Assembly: GCA_947486375.1 (NCBI GenBank)
Contig: CANKTP010000020.1
Location: forward strand, 1-33,963
Direction: 5' to 3'
DNA from: Candidatus Hydrogenedentota bacterium
GTDB taxonomy: Bacteria > Hydrogenedentota > Hydrogenedentia > Hydrogenedentales > GCA-2746185
Length of the DNA: 33,963 nucleotides
In this document: piece after piece, positions 25,008 through 33,963 of the stretch
How positions within the stretch are numbered: position 1 is the first letter of the stretch
How the letters are laid out: each line of letters starts with the position of its first letter
Notes under the pieces: model-generated
Told to the model about the DNA's origin: nothing
Database searches by the model: none
Seen by the model: the letters and a program-made list of their open reading frames with translations, nothing else
Made by a program: the position numbers and the translations under genes

Positions 25008-27527
25008 TCATTTTCCCTCACCAGCGAGCCACCACTGCAGCAGCGTCCGTAGCGCCTGCGGCGGATTGGTCGGGCCGGTCCTTCCGAACACATCTTCCCG
25101 ATTGAGGCCGTGGCAATTGCCGCAGACCCTAATCTCGCCCGACTTGAAAGTGAGCCAATAGCGCTCGCGCACGGCGGGCGTGCCGTCGGCCTCGGTGGTA
25201 TGCCACGACAACGCGCGGCCCGCCGGGACGAATGCCGCCATCGATCCGTCGTCCCCGAGCTGGACAGAAGCCTCGGGTGCGCCGGGGTCGGTCGGGTTCA
25301 CGAAGGAATCCATCGGGCGCGCAAGGACGCGCCGGCCGGGACGGGTGTATCCCCGGAGTTGCTTGCCCTCGAAGAACTGCATGTAGCCGATCTCTTTCGG
25401 GATTTCGGTTTCCTCGGCGCTGACGTGATCGCTCCACGCAATCTTGAGGTTGTAATCCTGTTGCGTGTCGGCGCGCACGGTGACATCGCGGCTCACCAGC
25501 AGGGCGAGATCGTTCGCATCGAGATAGGCCCGAAGGTCCTCGATGCCGCCGGCGCCGAGTTCCTCGGCGATTACGGCCTGTTCGATCTCGGGGACTTCCT
25601 CGAGCGGGGCGTCGGAAGGGATGGGCTGCGTGCGCACCTCGATCGCCTGGAGCTGCCACAGCGGACCGTCGTATTCCACATCGCGGTAGCGCGCATTGTC
25701 GAAGTAGGCGATCGACTTCACGATCGGGGCGACAAGGTCGGGACCCGGAACAAGGTGGCCGCCATCGCCGGGAACGAGCTGCGTGATCTCGAAATTGTAC
25801 CGGCTGGAAAGGACGAACGGGGCCGGCCCGGGGGGATTGTCCACGACCTCGTCGACCTGCCGCGCCGTGTTGCTGTGCGACGCCCAAATCGTCCCATCCT
25901 CGAGGACGACCGGATCGCGAAACATCCCGGCATGCCCCGGCGGCACGGGTTCCGCGTCGTCGACGGGGAAGGCCGTCTCCGGGTGAGTGTGGAACCGCGG
26001 CCGAATATCATCCGCGTTCGCGCCCGGCGGGGCGACGAGCGACACGAGTTGCCCGGACGCATGCGTGCCGAATTCGGCGCAGCGAATCCCATAGTATGTG
26101 CCCGGCTCGACGGGGCTCTCGCAGATATGCATGAAGATGTCGAGGGAATCCTCGTTGCCGGCATACTCGAGATACGTCCTCGCGGGCCCGATGTAGCCCG
26201 CCAATTCGTGCCGGCCAAGGTGGTTGAGGATCTCGAGGCCGGTGCCATCCTGCGATATCATCCACGGGAAGAAATGATTGAAGGTATGCACCGTTTCCGT
26301 GGGGTCGTAGTCCGCGTCCCAAAGCGGATCGACCGTCTCCGGATCGCCGGGGCCGTGAAGACCCCTAAGTTCCGGAAACACCTCGTCGGCGGGATCGAGG
26401 GCGTGCGAGGCATCGCTGTCCTCGCTGTCGAAGGTGAAGGACTCGAACGTGGATTCTTGCCCAAGGACAAGTTGCCGTATGTCGGCGTCCGCCTGTTGGT
26501 CGCGCTGGAGGTGGTCCCAGCGAGTGAAGATGACCCGGCCGAAGCTGTCGACGAACGGCGAGAAATCGCCAGAGGGACTGTGGTCGAGTATTTGCAAGCC
26601 GGAACCGTCCGCATTCATCTCCCACAATCCGCTGACGATGTCGGCGGATTCGTATTCGTCGCGCTGCGGATAGAGCATTCGGTCGCCATTTCGGGGACGG
26701 TCGCTCGTGAACAGGATGCGGCCGTCCGAGGCGTAGATCGGCGAGACGTTGTTGTAGTCCTCCGGCTGCGCGAGTTTGACGATCTCGACGGCCTCGTCCT
26801 GGCCAAATCCCGTGATCTCGTAAATCTGGAAGTACACCGGATCGATATCGTTCTGAATCGTCCCCCCGATGACCATGCTGAAAAGGGCCTTCGTCCCGGA
26901 CCAATGCGGCTGCGGGTCGCGGACCGCGATCTCTTCCCCGGGTCCCGTTCCGAATCCCGCCTCGGCGGTAAGATTCCGAAGCGTACCGTCCGAGTAACGG
27001 ATGTAAAGGTCGCCCCCGCGCGGCGCGCTGCCCACGCCGCCCTTGTGCGTGCCGAAGGTTGACATGAGGTTCGCGAAATCGTTGCCGAACGGGGTCTGTG
27101 TCACGAACATAATGGCGTTCGGGACTTCGCCTTCACCTTCTCCCTCGCCCTCACCTTCTCCCTCTCCTTCGCCTTCTCCCTCTCCTTCGCCTTCGCTCGA
27201 GTTGTCGGTCACCGTGATCAACACGCTCTCTGTGTCCGATCCCACGGTGGTCGTCACGGTGAGACGGACCGTGTACGCTCCAGGCGTATCGAAAGTATGT
27301 AGCGGAGATTGCTCGGTCGAAGTCTCGCCATCGCCAAAATCCCAGCCGGACTCGATGTTTCCCCCAGATCCGGCCGTACTTTCATCCGTGAACCGAACGG
27401 CCAACGGGGCCGGCCCGGTGGAATCGGACGGCGAAAACGCCGCCGTGGGCAGTACCCGGGGACATCCCCCCAATGAAATTGTGGCCAGAACGGAAAAAAA
27501 ACAGATCACGGGCGTCTTCAAGTTCAT
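25008..27527 (-). CDS. Lipoprotein with PKD domain, (EG)n linker and hydrazine-synthase-alpha-like propeller/monohaem C-terminus
   Basis: Start MNLKTPVICFFSVLATISLGGCPRV (lipobox LGGC). PKD text WDFGDGETSTEQSPLHTFDTPGAYTVRLTV. EGEGEGEG linker. FSPFVDSFGRVIFTRWDHLQRDQQAD. C-terminal CGNCH haem c motif. Confidence 0.82.
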   Translation of the reverse strand: MNLKTPVICFFSVLATISLGGCPRVLPTAAFSPSDSTGPAPLAVRFTDESTAGSGGNIESGWDFGDGETSTEQSPLHTFDTPGAYTVRLTVTTTVGSDTESVLITVTDNSSEGEGEGEGEGEGEGEGEGEGEGEVPNAIMFVTQTPFGNDFANLMSTFGTHKGGVGSAPRGGDLYIRYSDGTLRNLTAEAGFGTGPGEEIAVRDPQPHWSGTKALFSMVIGGTIQNDIDPVYFQIYEITGFGQDEAVEIVKLAQPEDYNNVSPIYASDGRILFTSDRPRNGDRMLYPQRDEYESADIVSGLWEMNADGSGLQILDHSPSGDFSPFVDSFGRVIFTRWDHLQRDQQADADIRQLVLGQESTFESFTFDSEDSDASHALDPADEVFPELRGLHGPGDPETVDPLWDADYDPTETVHTFNHFFPWMISQDGTGLEILNHLGRHELAGYIGPARTYLEYAGNEDSLDIFMHICESPVEPGTYYGIRCAEFGTHASGQLVSLVAPPGANADDIRPRFHTHPETAFPVDDAEPVPPGHAGMFRDPVVLEDGTIWASHSNTARQVDEVVDNPPGPAPFVLSSRYNFEITQLVPGDGGHLVPGPDLVAPIVKSIAYFDNARYRDVEYDGPLWQLQAIEVRTQPIPSDAPLEEVPEIEQAVIAEELGAGGIEDLRAYLDANDLALLVSRDVTVRADTQQDYNLKIAWSDHVSAEETEIPKEIGYMQFFEGKQLRGYTRPGRRVLARPMDSFVNPTDPGAPEASVQLGDDGSMAAFVPAGRALSWHTTEADGTPAVRERYWLTFKSGEIRVCGNCHGLNREDVFGRTGPTNPPQALRTLLQWWLAGEGK
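27130..27196. repeat. Hexameric coding repeat encoding the (Glu-Gly)n linker
   Basis: ccttcaccttctccctcgccctcaccttctccctctccttcgcc..., (CCYTCN)n-like, in frame with the 25008..27527 gene. Confidence 0.88.
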
Positions 27528-27700
27528 CGGATGGCTTCTCCCCAATGTTGGCGATTGTCGCCGGTCAATCAAATTGTACCATGCGTTTCGGTGCGCAAAA
27601 TGCCCGTCCCATGGGTCCCATAAACCTTTTTCCCACTGGAACAGTCTATATGACGTACAATGGCCGCAGCCGCGCCGAAATGGCGCCGGAGGATGATTCA

Positions 27701-29371
27701 ATGGCTACTCGGACAAAACTAATGGGCGGTGCCATGATCGGCCTTGCCGCGGTGGGCTTGGCGTCGATATTTCTGCTGGCCGGCTTGGGGCTCCGCGAGA
27801 CGCTCGGCTTGGCCTCCCCCGGTCCCGTGCCCCTGACGCTGCCCGTGCTCCGCCTAATGCCCGAATCCGCCGAGGTGGCCTGCGCCATTCCCCCGGTGGC
27901 CGATGTGCGCGACCGGTTCCTTGCGCTTGCCAAGCGCTTTCATCCGGAAGACGATCTGAATTCCGCCTACGATGAATTCGTGGCCGAGATTGCCGAGACG
28001 CTTGAGGCGGACACCGCCGCAACCCTCGAGGACCTCCTGGCCGCGAAAGGCATCGACGCATTCCAGCCCTTGGCCATGTTCGCCGACACGGACGCCCTCG
28101 AAGTCGCGGCGGCGGATGCGGAAGAATCCGCGCCCGAGAGCGAAGGCCTTCACCGCATTCCGCCGGGCCTCGCGCTCGTGATCGGGTGTGCCGATATCCA
28201 TGTGGCGCAGACGACCCTCGAGTCGCTGATCCCCGCCGAGGTGGCGCACTACACGGACGAGTCGTACAACGGCGTTTTCATTCGCACCTACGGCGACGCG
28301 TTCTGCTCCTACTATTTCGACGAGGACCGCATGGTCATCGGGAACTCGCTCGAGTTCGTCAAGGACATCGCGAAGCGCAGGACGGATCCCGCCAAGGTGC
28401 GCTATGGTTCGGCGGATTGTCCCGCGGGCGCGGCGGACGAGTTGGTCGCGCTGGTGCGGATGGATCGCGCGGCAGGACGTCTCGCCGATGTGACGGAGTC
28501 CCTCGCCGGCGATGAATCGCATGCCTTCCTCGAAGAGTTGCTGACGTTGCAGGACGGCTTCTCGAGCGATCCCCTCGTGGTGACCTTGGGCGAACACGAC
28601 GATGCATTCGAGCTTTTGGCCCGCGCCGATCTCGCGCAACACGAAGGCCTGCGCACCACGCTCGGGAAACCTTCCCCATTGCGTCTCGCCCAACTCCTGC
28701 CCGAGGACACGCTCGGCTTCATGAGCCTTCGGTTCAACCAGGAGTCGCGCGCGCTTCTCGTCAAGGCATTCGCAAACAACTTTCCCGAGACCGAGGGCGA
28801 CGAGGCCTTCCAGTTCATGACCGCGACCATGTTCAGCGATTGGATGACCATCATCGACGACGAGATGACCATCGCGGTCACGGAAATTCGCGACGACGAA
28901 GTCGAGGGCATCGGCATGCTCGCCGTGAACAACAAGGATCAATTGTCCACGCTTGTCTCGGCCATCCCGGGCGAGACCGTCGAGACCCATCGCAACGTCG
29001 ACCTGCGGAAGCTGCCCTTCGACGAGGCCGGCGGCATTCACTACGCCATCGCGCGCAACGTGTTTGTCATGAGCACGGACATCGAGCAACTTCGAGGCGT
29101 GGTCGATCGGCTGCTCGATCGCGAAACCTCGGCCCTGTTTGCCAGCTTCACGCCGCCCATCGACGAAGACACGCCGCGATACGGCGCGCTCGTCCTGCGT
29201 TCGGACTTGCTCGCCAAGGCCGGGATCGACTTCCTCGACAGCGATGATGCAAACACCGGCGTCGGCGGCATTGTGCGAGACGCACGCCTCACCGGCGACG
29301 TCGAGGGCACCTGGCTCGCCACCCGACTCGCCGTGTACCTCACTCCTCCGGCCTCCGCGCAGGCCGACTGA
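27701..29371 (+). CDS. Membrane-anchored/secreted protein, DUF3352-like
   Basis: Start MATRTKLMGGAMIGLAAVGLASIFLLAGLGL with GGAGG RBS. Long soluble domain with LPEDTLGFMSLRF and similar text; family assignment is tentative. Confidence 0.6.
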   Translation: MATRTKLMGGAMIGLAAVGLASIFLLAGLGLRETLGLASPGPVPLTLPVLRLMPESAEVACAIPPVADVRDRFLALAKRFHPEDDLNSAYDEFVAEIAETLEADTAATLEDLLAAKGIDAFQPLAMFADTDALEVAAADAEESAPESEGLHRIPPGLALVIGCADIHVAQTTLESLIPAEVAHYTDESYNGVFIRTYGDAFCSYYFDEDRMVIGNSLEFVKDIAKRRTDPAKVRYGSADCPAGAADELVALVRMDRAAGRLADVTESLAGDESHAFLEELLTLQDGFSSDPLVVTLGEHDDAFELLARADLAQHEGLRTTLGKPSPLRLAQLLPEDTLGFMSLRFNQESRALLVKAFANNFPETEGDEAFQFMTATMFSDWMTIIDDEMTIAVTEIRDDEVEGIGMLAVNNKDQLSTLVSAIPGETVETHRNVDLRKLPFDEAGGIHYAIARNVFVMSTDIEQLRGVVDRLLDRETSALFASFTPPIDEDTPRYGALVLRSDLLAKAGIDFLDSDDANTGVGGIVRDARLTGDVEGTWLATRLAVYLTPPASAQAD

Positions 29372-29570: not shown

Positions 29571-29601
29571 CCCCGAAAGTTTCCCTTGCCAAATTTCGGG
29601 G
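29571..29601. promoter_or_regulatory. Possible leader stem-loop upstream of the 29692 gene
   Basis: ccccgaaa (29571-29578) pairs perfectly with tttcgggg (29594-29601), loop 15 nt. ggcaag (29553-29558) can pair with cttgcc inside that loop (29585-29590). Confidence 0.4.
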
Positions 29602-29691
29602 AAAGGATTATCGTAATCGAAGGTTGCGATATCCTCGGTCCGGATTTCTGGGCCGACGGTCATTCATTCCGTGCTTGGGAGGTCGGTCGGG

Positions 29692-30309
29692 ATGCCGGAT
29701 GCTGCGCTCACTCTCCTATCGTGGAGCTTCGCGCTCCTCGCGTTCAGTGGTTCCCAGTTGATCGAGTCCAAGGCCGCGCCTTCGACAAATGACGCCCCCG
29801 CCGCCAAGCCCGCCCTACCGATCGAGATTAGTGTGGTTGCGGAACGTTCTCCCTCCGCCATCGGCGAGGAGTTCGAGGTCAAGGCGGTCGCGGTCCTGAC
29901 CGAGCCCTATCCCGCCGTGGTCATTTCCTTCCAATCGGCGCACGGCCCCATCGTTATCGTGGAAGGCGAAGACACCCGCCACACCTATCCCGCCGTCAAG
30001 CACAGGCTCGAAGCCCGGGCCACCGTCAAGACGACCGCGGCCGGCAAGGCCGAGCTACGCGCGGTTGCTTCTGTCCAAGACGACCTCGGCCGGGCCATCT
30101 ACGCCCCCGCCGCGTCCCTCTACATCGTCGCGGCGACCAACCGCGTGGTCACCGGCAGCAAAGGCTATCTCGAACTCGAGCTCGGACTGCTGAAGCAACA
30201 ACTCGACGCGGGCGAAATCTCGAAGACCCAATACGACGAGGCAGTAGGCAAGGCGATGCGCGGAGGTGCGACCACCTCGCGAACGCAAGTCGACGAACCC
30301 AGAGAGTAG
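29692..30309 (+). CDS. Small secreted protein, stand-alone paralogue of the N-terminal domain of the downstream giant protein
   Basis: MPDAALTLLSWSFALLAFSGSQLIES signal, then a beta-rich domain ending LYIVAATNRVVTGSKGYLELELGLLKQQLDAGEISKTQYDEAVGKAMRGGATT. GGGAGG RBS upstream of ATG 29692. Confidence 0.75.
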   Translation: MPDAALTLLSWSFALLAFSGSQLIESKAAPSTNDAPAAKPALPIEISVVAERSPSAIGEEFEVKAVAVLTEPYPAVVISFQSAHGPIVIVEGEDTRHTYPAVKHRLEARATVKTTAAGKAELRAVASVQDDLGRAIYAPAASLYIVAATNRVVTGSKGYLELELGLLKQQLDAGEISKTQYDEAVGKAMRGGATTSRTQVDEPRE

Positions 30310-30352: not shown

Positions 30353-33300
30353 ATGAATGCGCATTCGGATAGTCCACGAAAACTTTTACTCATTGTTGCG
30401 ACGATCCTAGCGATGACATTCGCGGCGCTGCCCGCGAGTGCCACGAAACCGCCCGCAGTCGTCGAGATGGACCTTTCCGTCGATGAATCGGCGCTCGCCT
30501 CGGACCGCGATGCTACCTTGACCCTGGTCGCGGTGCCCATAGTGGACATCCGGAAAGCCCGCTTCGAATTCTCCGTGGCATACGGGGACGGCCGTATCTC
30601 CGGCACGGTGGCCGAAGACCTTGGGGACATCGTCGCCGGCGTCTCCTACACCATTACGTCGCGCTTGGCGCTGACCGGTTTAGGGAAAGTTGAAGTGCGC
30701 GTTACGGCCTTGGGCGTCGATACCTCGAGCGGCACGCTGTTTCGCCGGGCCACCTGCCTCTACGTCGTGTCCTCTGGGGATCAAGTCTCTTCCAGCAACG
30801 AAGGATACATTCCGGCACACCTCGACGCCTTGAAGCGCCGCGCCACCAACGGCGGACTGACTAAGTCCGCGCTCGACGATGAAGTTCATCGGGCGATGAC
30901 GGGCGGGGCAAAGACTGAAGTGATCGCCGGCAAACAGGGCAAGCAGGCCGGCATCGGCATTCAGGGAACGGCGAGCTGGACCGACAGCGGCGGGAGCACA
31001 CACCCAGCGCGCAACGTCACGGTGGAGGTTCACGACGCTGCCGATGCATCTCCGGATCCCCTTGCAACGACCACGGCATCGGCCTTCGATGGGTCGTTTG
31101 GCTTTTTCGGGATTGACGATTCTCCGGAAGAACTTCGGGATATTTTCATCCGTATCAAGGCGACAAGCGCGTTCGCCACAATCAAGGGCGCATCCGGCGG
31201 GAACATACACGCCGTCGACTCGGATACGGCCGAAGACGTCGAGGATGGTGGATTCCGCTTCTTTGGCGTGGTCGCGAACAACACGGATGACAACGCGCAG
31301 GCCTTCTCTGTTCATGATGGACTAGTGTTGATCATCGGCTATGCCGACAATTTCGGCGCCATCCCGCGAATCGACACTATTTTTCCAGGAACAGGGACAT
31401 TCTTCCGTCCGGCGACCAGCGAGATACACTTGGTGAAGGGCGATTGGCCAGACTGGGACATCATCGGCCATGAGTACACCCACTACTTCCAACGCCAGAA
31501 GGCAATTAGCGCAAGCCCCGGCGGGGGCCATGCCATTTTGCAAAACATGGCGGAGACGCTTACCAAGGACAACGGCGTCAGGCTGGCTTGGTCCGAAGGA
31601 CATGCCACCCATTTCGGTATCGCCGCGCAGATCGACCAAGGCGCATCCTCTCTGGGCGTGCCGGAGGTCGGGGACACCGCCTATATCGACACCATCGACG
31701 GGGGCGGGTTCACCTACGACATGGAGATCAATGACAGCAAGGGCGAAGGCACTGGCGAGGACAATGAGTTGTCGGTGCAACGCATCCTCTGGGACATTTA
31801 CGACGGTCCCGCAGATGCCAACGATCAGGTGGCGACGAGCAACTTCACGCTGACGAGCCTGATGATCGACAACACGGTCGTCACCTTGTCCCAGTTCTGG
31901 AATGCGCTAACGGCGACGACAGATACCCGGCAAGACGTCACGTACGGGTGCATCTTTGGCGACCACAATGTCGCGCCGGAACTAACGGCGCCCGCCGACG
32001 GGGCCGAGTTCTTGAGTGTCGACCCGCCTCCGGCGTTTCGTTGGATTCGCAACGGCGCTGGTCCCTCGAATCGCCTGAACAAGTTTACTGTCGAGTTCTG
32101 GAATGAGGACTTCACCAGCAACATCTTTACTTCGCCTGAGGTGGACGACCCTATGTTCACCCCAACGGACGAGCAGTGGGACACCATCCTCGCCGGCGGA
32201 GATGTGATCAAGTGGGTCGTTCGCGGACGAAATACAACCGCGGCCGAGACGGGAACATACGTCAGTTGCGACCGGACGATCGGCGGGGTGGACGTCGGGT
32301 TTGTCATAGACACCACGGGGAGCATGGGTCAAGAGATAGACGGAATCAAGGCTGCATTGACCGCCTTCGTCACCGCCCTCGAGGAGGAAGAGATTACGCC
32401 GTCGATCAACATTGTGACATTCGACGATTCTCCCTTCTCTCGAATCATTTCGGACGATCTTGTGGCGATTCAGGCAGAGGTCGATTCGCTTTTCGCCGGT
32501 GGGGGGGGCGATTGTCCGGAGGGTTCCGTGGAGGCGCTCAACTTGGCGGCGAAGAACGTCCGGGCGGGCGGGCGTATCCTGTTTGCCACGGATGCCGACG
32601 CGCACGATGGGCTTAATATACCGGCCACGATTGCCGCCCTGCGCGGGAAGGGCATCCGGGTTGATGTGTTGCTCTCGGCAAGTTGTTCGATTTTCAAGGA
32701 ACTCGGAAATTGCAACGATGCCGATTGCGCGGGCGATCAACTAGACAAAACTGTCGGGACTTGCGATCTCCCGGTATGCGACGATCCGATTGTCTATCCT
32801 CCCGACTATCCGACGGACGCGGTCGTCGTGTTCTCCGCGATTGCGGCGGAGAGCGGTGGCGTGTTCGCCTTCATCCCAGAGGTCAATCGCGGCGACCCAA
32901 CCCGCTTCAACAACGTCGCGTTGAACGCGATGCTAGGCACGGTATTTCCCGGCATTCTCGACCTAAACCCGGCGAAGGGGGCCCCCAATAGTACCCTCAA
33001 CGTCGTCTTTACGGGGTCGAACACGAACTTCAACGGCGAGAGCACGGTTGCTTTCGGTGGGACCGGCATCGCCGTGAACTCGACGGAAACCCTGAGTGCC
33101 ACAAGCCTGCGGGCAAACGTTAGCATTGCGGAAGATGCAGGGCAGAGTTTCCGCGACGTCACGGTGACGACGACCCTCGGTGACGATTCCATCGAGGAGG
33201 CCACGGGAACGGGGGCCTTCGAAGTCGAAATCTCCTTTGTTTCGGATCTCACCAGCCTGTTCCCCTCGTCCGGCGCGATCGGCGACACCCTGAACGTTGT

Positions 33301-33963
33301 CGTCACGGCGTTCCTGTCGAACTTCGACGAGACGACCACCATCGACTTCGGTACGGGGGTAACGGTGAACTCCTTTACCCCGAACAGCGCCACCGAGGGT
33401 ATTGCAAACATCACGATTACGGGGAGCGCGGCGCCGGGCTTCCACCAAGTGACTATTGGCGGGGACTTCGGCACCATATTCGACTCGTCCCCTGGGTCAT
33501 TCCTTGTCACCTCCGCGGATCTCGCCGAAGGCTTCCCGCGGATCGTTACGGTTACGCCCAATATCGCGTCGCCCGGAGGCAACGCCACGATTACCGTGGT
33601 AGGCGAAAACACAACCTTCGAGGACGGGGTGTCCTTTGGCACCGTAAGCGGCGAAGGCGTGACCGTCGACACCACGACGGTCAACTCGGCGACCGTGGCC
33701 GAACTCGAGATTACCGTAAGCCCGGATGCCCCGACCAGCTTCCGCGACCTAAGCGTGACTACCGGCGGCGAAGTGGCGACCGCCCTCAACGCGCTCGAAA
33801 TCGGCAACAGCCCCCCTGTGGCCGACGCCGGCGACGATCAGTTGATCACCGTCACCAGCACCGGCACGACCGACGTCACCCTGGACGGTTCCGGCTCGAC
33901 CGATCCGGGCGGCATCACTGCCTACGTGTGGACGGGTACTCCCGACCCCGCGGACGTGGCGGC
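30353..33963 (+). CDS. Giant secreted multidomain protein: N-domain / HExxH metalloprotease / vWA / IPT-TIG-like repeats / PKD (3'-truncated by the window end; absent from the ORF track)
   Basis: ATG 30353 with GGAGGA RBS. Hand translation gives 1203 codons without a stop: signal MNAHSDSPRKLLLIVATILAMTFAALPASA; DIIGHEYTHYFQ...LAWSEGHATHFG; VDVGFVIDTTGSMGQEIDGIKAAL...GGGGDCPEGS; SPPVADAGDDQLITV...LDGSGSTDPGG. Confidence 0.93.
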   Translation, partial: MNAHSDSPRKLLLIVATILAMTFAALPASATKPPAVVEMDLSVDESALASDRDATLTLVAVPIVDIRKARFEFSVAYGDGRISGTVAEDLGDIVAGVSYTITSRLALTGLGKVEVRVTALGVDTSSGTLFRRATCLYVVSSGDQVSSSNEGYIPAHLDALKRRATNGGLTKSALDDEVHRAMTGGAKTEVIAGKQGKQAGIGIQGTASWTDSGGSTHPARNVTVEVHDAADASPDPLATTTASAFDGSFGFFGIDDSPEELRDIFIRIKATSAFATIKGASGGNIHAVDSDTAEDVEDGGFRFFGVVANNTDDNAQAFSVHDGLVLIIGYADNFGAIPRIDTIFPGTGTFFRPATSEIHLVKGDWPDWDIIGHEYTHYFQRQKAISASPGGGHAILQNMAETLTKDNGVRLAWSEGHATHFGIAAQIDQGASSLGVPEVGDTAYIDTIDGGGFTYDMEINDSKGEGTGEDNELSVQRILWDIYDGPADANDQVATSNFTLTSLMIDNTVVTLSQFWNALTATTDTRQDVTYGCIFGDHNVAPELTAPADGAEFLSVDPPPAFRWIRNGAGPSNRLNKFTVEFWNEDFTSNIFTSPEVDDPMFTPTDEQWDTILAGGDVIKWVVRGRNTTAAETGTYVSCDRTIGGVDVGFVIDTTGSMGQEIDGIKAALTAFVTALEEEEITPSINIVTFDDSPFSRIISDDLVAIQAEVDSLFAGGGGDCPEGSVEALNLAAKNVRAGGRILFATDADAHDGLNIPATIAALRGKGIRVDVLLSASCSIFKELGNCNDADCAGDQLDKTVGTCDLPVCDDPIVYPPDYPTDAVVVFSAIAAESGGVFAFIPEVNRGDPTRFNNVALNAMLGTVFPGILDLNPAKGAPNSTLNVVFTGSNTNFNGESTVAFGGTGIAVNSTETLSATSLRANVSIAEDAGQSFRDVTVTTTLGDDSIEEATGTGAFEVEISFVSDLTSLFPSSGAIGDTLNVVVTAFLSNFDETTTIDFGTGVTVNSFTPNSATEGIANITITGSAAPGFHQVTIGGDFGTIFDSSPGSFLVTSADLAEGFPRIVTVTPNIASPGGNATITVVGENTTFEDGVSFGTVSGEGVTVDTTTVNSATVAELEITVSPDAPTSFRDLSVTTGGEVATALNALEIGNSPPVADAGDDQLITVTSTGTTDVTLDGSGSTDPGGITAYVWTGTPDPADVA

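Follow-up and report, generated by a model that had tools for sequence, protein, structure and literature searches.

In gluzincins of family M1, the HExxH motif is followed by a downstream helix carrying a WxEG(F/L)-type Glu, and the same is true of families M9 (collagenase) and M61 and of the protease described here. Closer to it are the M36 peptidases (PF02128; NCBIfam NF038112 and NF038111), which are secreted and have HEYTH or HEYGH followed by the Glu of an EG helix; a remote profile match links them to the present protein, and some bacterial M36 enzymes bear C-terminal sorting tails and are named in NCBIfam as myxosortase- or rhombosortase-dependent. The vWA domain of the protein has the MIDAS motif D-x-T-x-S, the GGGDCPE loop and the TDA motif of the VWA_4 family, but here it is fused to a metallopeptidase. 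The C-terminal ends of its homologues are similar to the MYXO-CTERM and GlyGly-CTERM signals (PMC11980579, PMC3237569) in having a Cys or Gly motif, a membrane helix and an Arg-rich end, and differ from them in an invariant Asp, mostly as Gly-Asp, before the helix. In the case of MYXO-CTERM, the intramembrane protease myxosortase cleaves at the lipidated Cys (PMC11980579). Moreover, the hairpin that ends the N-domain of the protein, and also its upstream partner, weakly matches the SHOCT domain (PF09851; PMC3581485), although the match is below the Pfam cut-off and the hairpin lies in the middle of the protein in the protease.

The gene is located at the right edge of the window, which here means the whole stretch of DNA analysed (33,963 nucleotides from a Candidatus Hydrogenedentota bacterium). 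The window is the complete contig G000:C20 of a 3.8-Mb bin (253 contigs, 89% complete), and the reading frame is open at its 3' end because the contig stops there. The features of the locus are as follows.

29586..29614, + strand: candidate sigma-70-like promoter, weak (9 of 12 consensus positions; 1 found versus 0.2 expected in shuffles)
29692..30309, + strand: partner gene encoding 205 aa, paralogous to the N-domain of the protease, with an exported Ig-like domain and a SHOCT-like helical hairpin
30353..33963, + strand: main gene, truncated after 1203 codons where the contig stops (1318-1427 aa in homologues)
30353..30442, + strand: signal peptide, residues 1-30, with basic n-region, hydrophobic core and PASA/TKP junction; same layout in homologues
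30458..30937, + strand: N-domain, residues 36-195, with a SHOCT-like hairpin at its end, from the alignment with the partner
30938..31276, + strand: transthyretin/carboxypeptidase-regulatory-like beta sandwich, residues 196-308, from AlphaFold2 strands and TTR-like Foldseek hits
31277..31987, + strand: metallopeptidase domain, residues 309-545, from AlphaFold2 and a 45-member family
31469..31483, + strand: HEYTH, with predicted zinc ligands H373 and H377 and predicted general base E374
31529..31531, + strand: H393 of PGGxH, conserved in every close member and a candidate for a transition-state or second-shell role
31595..31597, + strand: E415 in the LAWxEG helix, predicted third zinc ligand
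31766..31768, + strand: E472 of the GEDNE-SVQRILWDLYD motif, a family hallmark
31988..32287, + strand: conserved linking region, residues 546-645, from alignments, without Pfam match
32288..32962, + strand: vWA domain (VWA_4), residues 646-870, with MIDAS D653-x-T655-x-S657, loop-2 D720, and D747
32963..33796, + strand: three TIG-like beta repeats, residues ~871-960, 965-1057 and 1060-1148, from internal repeats
33800..33963, + strand: first part of a PKD domain, truncated where the contig stops (K319L-like_PKD, E=9e-4)

The most likely reading of the locus is that its two genes form a module which digests proteins at the cell surface. With a probability of about 0.68, we take the main protein to be a zinc endopeptidase that is exported by Sec, stays at the surface and belongs to an uncharacterised family of gluzincins; its target would be held by the vWA domain, and it would work with a dedicated partner. 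The signal peptide would direct export through Sec, the zinc site would fold with H373, H377 and E415 binding the metal, as their invariance and the order of the motifs suggest, and a water activated by E374 of the HExxH motif would cleave the protein target. The TIG-like repeats and the PKD domain may form a stalk spacing the protease from the cell, retention at the surface would be due to a tail of Cys, Gly-Asp, membrane helix and Arg, and the vWA domain, via a divalent metal in its MIDAS, could keep a substrate, or a partner on the surface, close to the catalytic domain. Export and cleavage follow from named motifs, and folding of the zinc site, retention and target capture are steps that we infer.

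The residues of the predicted catalytic site are conserved. An alignment of 45 sequences, including relatives from many bacterial lineages, shows no variation at H373, E374, H377, E415 and E472, a conservation of 96–98% at G416, D481 and D484 and one of 84% at H393, and the 12 close members all keep H373, E374, H377, E415, W368-D369, H393, E469, D470 and E472. E415 lies in LAWSEGHATHF, 38 residues past H377. The positions given in an earlier note on this DNA for HEYTH, for this Glu and for DTTGSM (at 32309) are all correct, and its reading of the protein as a secreted gluzincin-type metalloprotease is borne out by sequence features, by conservation within the family and by comparison of profiles. 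The profile built from the close members finds relatives, which have no usable names, in many other lineages and up to six per genome; among plasmids only one remote relative was found, in Streptomyces, and none was found in the viral contigs searched. One genome outside the phylum (G242; L061, L073 and other loci) encodes six members of this metallopeptidase family, and the proteins that contain them reach 1722 aa. As for the structure, the Foldseek hits of a model of residues 196-545 were dominated by the transthyretin-like domain, and the protease core was therefore modelled by itself from a deeper alignment that leaves out one row, a plasmid locus. AlphaFold2 predicted this core with a pLDDT of 87.4 (mean 87 over residues 300-545) and a pTM of 0.88, and placed HExxH and E415 on two helices with high confidence. 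Therefore an HExxH helix and a downstream helix Glu, all conserved, are present as in the gluzincins (clan MA(E)), and the assignment of H373, H377 and E415 as a predicted zinc site is well supported.

It is more difficult to place the protease in a family. Searches of Pfam, NCBIfam and PDB with the single sequence of the window protein gave no peptidase match, and no Pfam or NCBIfam model fits the protease domain, whether in the window protein or in close homologues. This agrees with the earlier note, where no named family was given for such a protease combined with a vWA domain and TIG/PKD repeats. Foldseek of the protease core against PDB gave no significant match, the best plausible one being the M61 aminopeptidase 7xyo (E=1.1, TM 0.44). 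When the active-site segment was compared profile to profile (hhalign), the probabilities were 96% for M36, 8% for M9, 1% for M4, 0.2% for vWA and 0% for shuffled M36, and on this basis simple M9 or M4 membership is rejected. One alternative is that the protein is a normal member of M36 (fungalysin) that has diverged beyond the reach of the Pfam model, and this is consistent with the remote M36 match over the HExxH-to-E region, with a PDB hit of the family profile (7qfy, an extracellular metalloproteinase, E=3e-4, with myroilysin at a similar score), whose HEYTHG and GEGW helices and LwDlyD helix align in register, and with weak matches of the family profile to M36-like genes. However, we consider it improbable, since the M36 model PF02128 matches none of 12 members even at E≤10, no M36 structure was found by Foldseek, G-x3-E stands in place of the third M36 motif VH-x3-GE(V/I)W (VH-x3-GEVW in the M36 genes examined here), and the Asp of GEGWSD, four residues past the ligand Glu, is replaced, mostly by Thr or Asn. 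The 38-residue spacing from HExxH to E in the window protein, with PGGxH, is also unlike M36, and further differences are the motif NExSVxxxLWDLxD, the fusion to a vWA domain and the paired N-domain gene. We conclude that, on its sequence features, the protease belongs to the gluzincins, with M36 as the closest family that has a name; in view of the failed Pfam match and the different third motif, it is not taken as an M36 member.

The most unusual feature of the locus is that a domain of the protease is strictly paired with a free copy of itself. The partner gene, which was overlooked in the earlier note, starts at ATG 29692, seven codons inside the listed GTG frame and with GGGAGG upstream, and stops 43 bases 5' of the protease start; the candidate promoter lies 5' of both genes. 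Its product is 28% identical to residues 27-189 of the protease. Among 68 Hydrogenedentota genomes, a profile of the N-domain finds matches in 9, all of them at loci of this kind, either at the protease N-terminus or in an adjacent stand-alone gene, and its absence elsewhere in the 68 genomes indicates that the two genes form a strict module. The stand-alone copy is directly upstream at all seven loci where it was found, including the window; it was not seen in G031, and in G015 the contig ends before the region. No conserved neighbour other than the partner gene was found at the homologous loci. In addition, a lipobox-like Cys is present in the stand-alone copies of G044, G035, G001 and G039 and absent from those of the window and the dockerin-bearing pair of genomes, so the partner may be a lipoprotein in several relatives. 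We assume that the upstream gene supplies a free N-domain copy which could act as a docking subunit, a chaperone or an inhibitor. The SHOCT hairpin of the N-domain was matched below threshold in 7 of 17 members, with a best score of 20.3 bits against a cut-off of 27 among the members scored; no SHOCT-mediated oligomer is assumed here, because the only published experiment on oligomerisation by a SHOCT domain gave a negative result (PMC3581485). Some copies of the module are disturbed or multiplied: in G031 (L030, 7758-12500) an in-frame TAG splits the N-domain from the remainder of the protease, and this may reflect an error of assembly, a gene divided in two or a copy that is broken; several copies of the module occur in G048 (contigs C8 and C179; L025, L026), and in G049 (L027, L028) the second copy is split by frame breaks.

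The end of the protein is absent from the window, as was noted before, and the missing C-terminus was not found on other contigs of the same genome, but the homologues now suggest that it is either a sorting tail with a membrane helix or a pair of dockerins. In six homologues the C-terminus consists of Cys, mostly Gly-Asp, a membrane helix and basic residues, and three others (L025, L026 and L027, in G048 and G049) end in tandem dockerin I repeats, two in each. A profile of the tail matches 41 of the 68 Hydrogenedentota genomes (wider matches catalogued as L137-L154), with five matches in the genome of the window itself, including G000:C31:12179-12283, C99:3259-3333, C7:2057-2149 and C6:29439-29549, and the matches that were checked end at, or a few residues from, the stop codon of exported-looking proteins. 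None of the NCBIfam sorting-signal models reached its cut-off in ten tails of other proteins of the phylum, where the best score of the MYXO-CTERM model was 8 bits against a cut-off of 20. Thus the tail, which is carried by many large exported Hydrogenedentota proteins, is a candidate for an unnamed sorting signal, and the protein in the window probably had one as well, judging from its homologues. In G048 and G049, which have little or no tail signal genome-wide, the anchoring systems have apparently been swapped, with dockerins in place of the membrane tail; the dockerin versions in these two related genomes would attach the enzyme to a complex that carries cohesins. Another possible role of the protease, acting chiefly in cis or on its own cell surface to mature the partner or other anchored proteins instead of digesting food proteins, would fit its strict pairing with a free N-domain copy and the surface-retention tails. 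We regard this as unlikely, given that the dockerin-tailed versions resemble extracellular degradative enzymes and that the wider family consists of varied secreted proteins with T9SS tails.

The vWA domain of the window protein is confirmed by Pfam, where VWA_4 (PF25106) scores 75.8 bits against a cut-off of 27 (E=3.7e-21) and is matched in ten of ten members. Of its predicted metal-binding residues, D653, S657 and D747 of the MIDAS are invariant in the ten members and T655 is nearly so, and the loop-2 position D720 varies among Asp, Thr and Glu. No vWA domain was found at the loci of metallopeptidase relatives from other lineages, where the flanks fetched would reveal one at the same distance and not one farther off, which suggests that the fusion is specific to Hydrogenedentota in this sample; among the genomes examined, a metallopeptidase fused to a vWA domain with intact MIDAS occurs only in this phylum. 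Since much of the chain consists of non-catalytic, adhesion-type domains, it might be asked whether the protein is chiefly a vWA adhesin and a pseudo-enzyme, with the site kept for metal binding or folding. This is still less probable than either alternative above, because the general base E374 is invariant in all 45 sequences, including the relatives without a vWA domain.

The domains that follow are less clear. The vWA call of the earlier note stands, and its TIG and PKD calls fall below the curated cut-offs in the window protein, where TIG scores 14.4 bits against 20.9 and a match of the same repeats to Qn_am_d_aIII is likewise below cut-off. PKD is clearer in the relatives, being matched at E≤0.01 in nine of ten family members, while TIG reaches this level in two of ten, so TIG-like is a tentative name given on a weak profile match. 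Another PKD domain occurs in a lipoprotein encoded on the opposite strand of the window (25008-27701, −), which has an EGEGEG linker and, close to its end, a CxxCH haem motif, and which matches the middle domain of hydrazine synthase alpha below threshold.

The frame from 30353 to 33963 is a real gene truncated by the contig end, as had been claimed for an unlisted gene of 1203 codons. Translation gives 1203 stop-free codons from ATG 30353 to the last base 33963, and the GGAGGA ribosome-binding site reported for this start is found immediately 5' of it. In 300 base shuffles of the region, the longest stop-free run averaged 165 codons with a maximum of 367, and HExxH occurred by chance in 0.8% of shuffled proteins. 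Homologues are present in nine other Hydrogenedentota genomes at 30–53% identity (the gene thus occurs in about 10 of 68), the top ones align over almost all of the 1203 aa at 44–53% identity, and the complete ones are 1318-1427 aa long. Furthermore, in pairs of homologues dN in the protease region is ~0.25–0.65 and dS is ~1 or more, often saturated, and a dN so far below dS indicates purifying selection on the gene. A frame left open by chance, or as the antisense of another one, in DNA rich in GC, to which the overlapping antisense frames and the GC content of 0.74 at third codon positions might point, is ruled out by the full-length homologues with conserved domains, the purifying selection on this frame and the shuffle statistics. 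Its absence from the list of open reading frames supplied with the earlier note is likely due to the open end, as a program that requires a stop codon would skip such a frame.

In the literature searched, nothing was found on a metalloprotease-vWA architecture, and no paper was found that pairs 'Hydrogenedentes' with 'metalloprotease'. The architecture of this secreted protease is new, and the principle underlying it is not. It is possible, with a chance that we put at somewhat under one half, that a new gluzincin family spread over many lineages has been adapted in Hydrogenedentota to a two-gene surface system, in which the vWA domain would present the substrate, the free N-domain would control or dock the protease, and the anchor would be exchanged between the phylum-wide tail and dockerins. 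The family offers a testable identity for large secreted proteins that recur without a named catalytic domain in Pfam or NCBIfam, and the strict gene pair gives direct access to the docking or control of such proteases. Considering that the extracellular proteases of Hydrogenedentota appear to be little studied, the surface module and the phylum-wide tail may inform how these bacteria acquire nitrogen and carbon.
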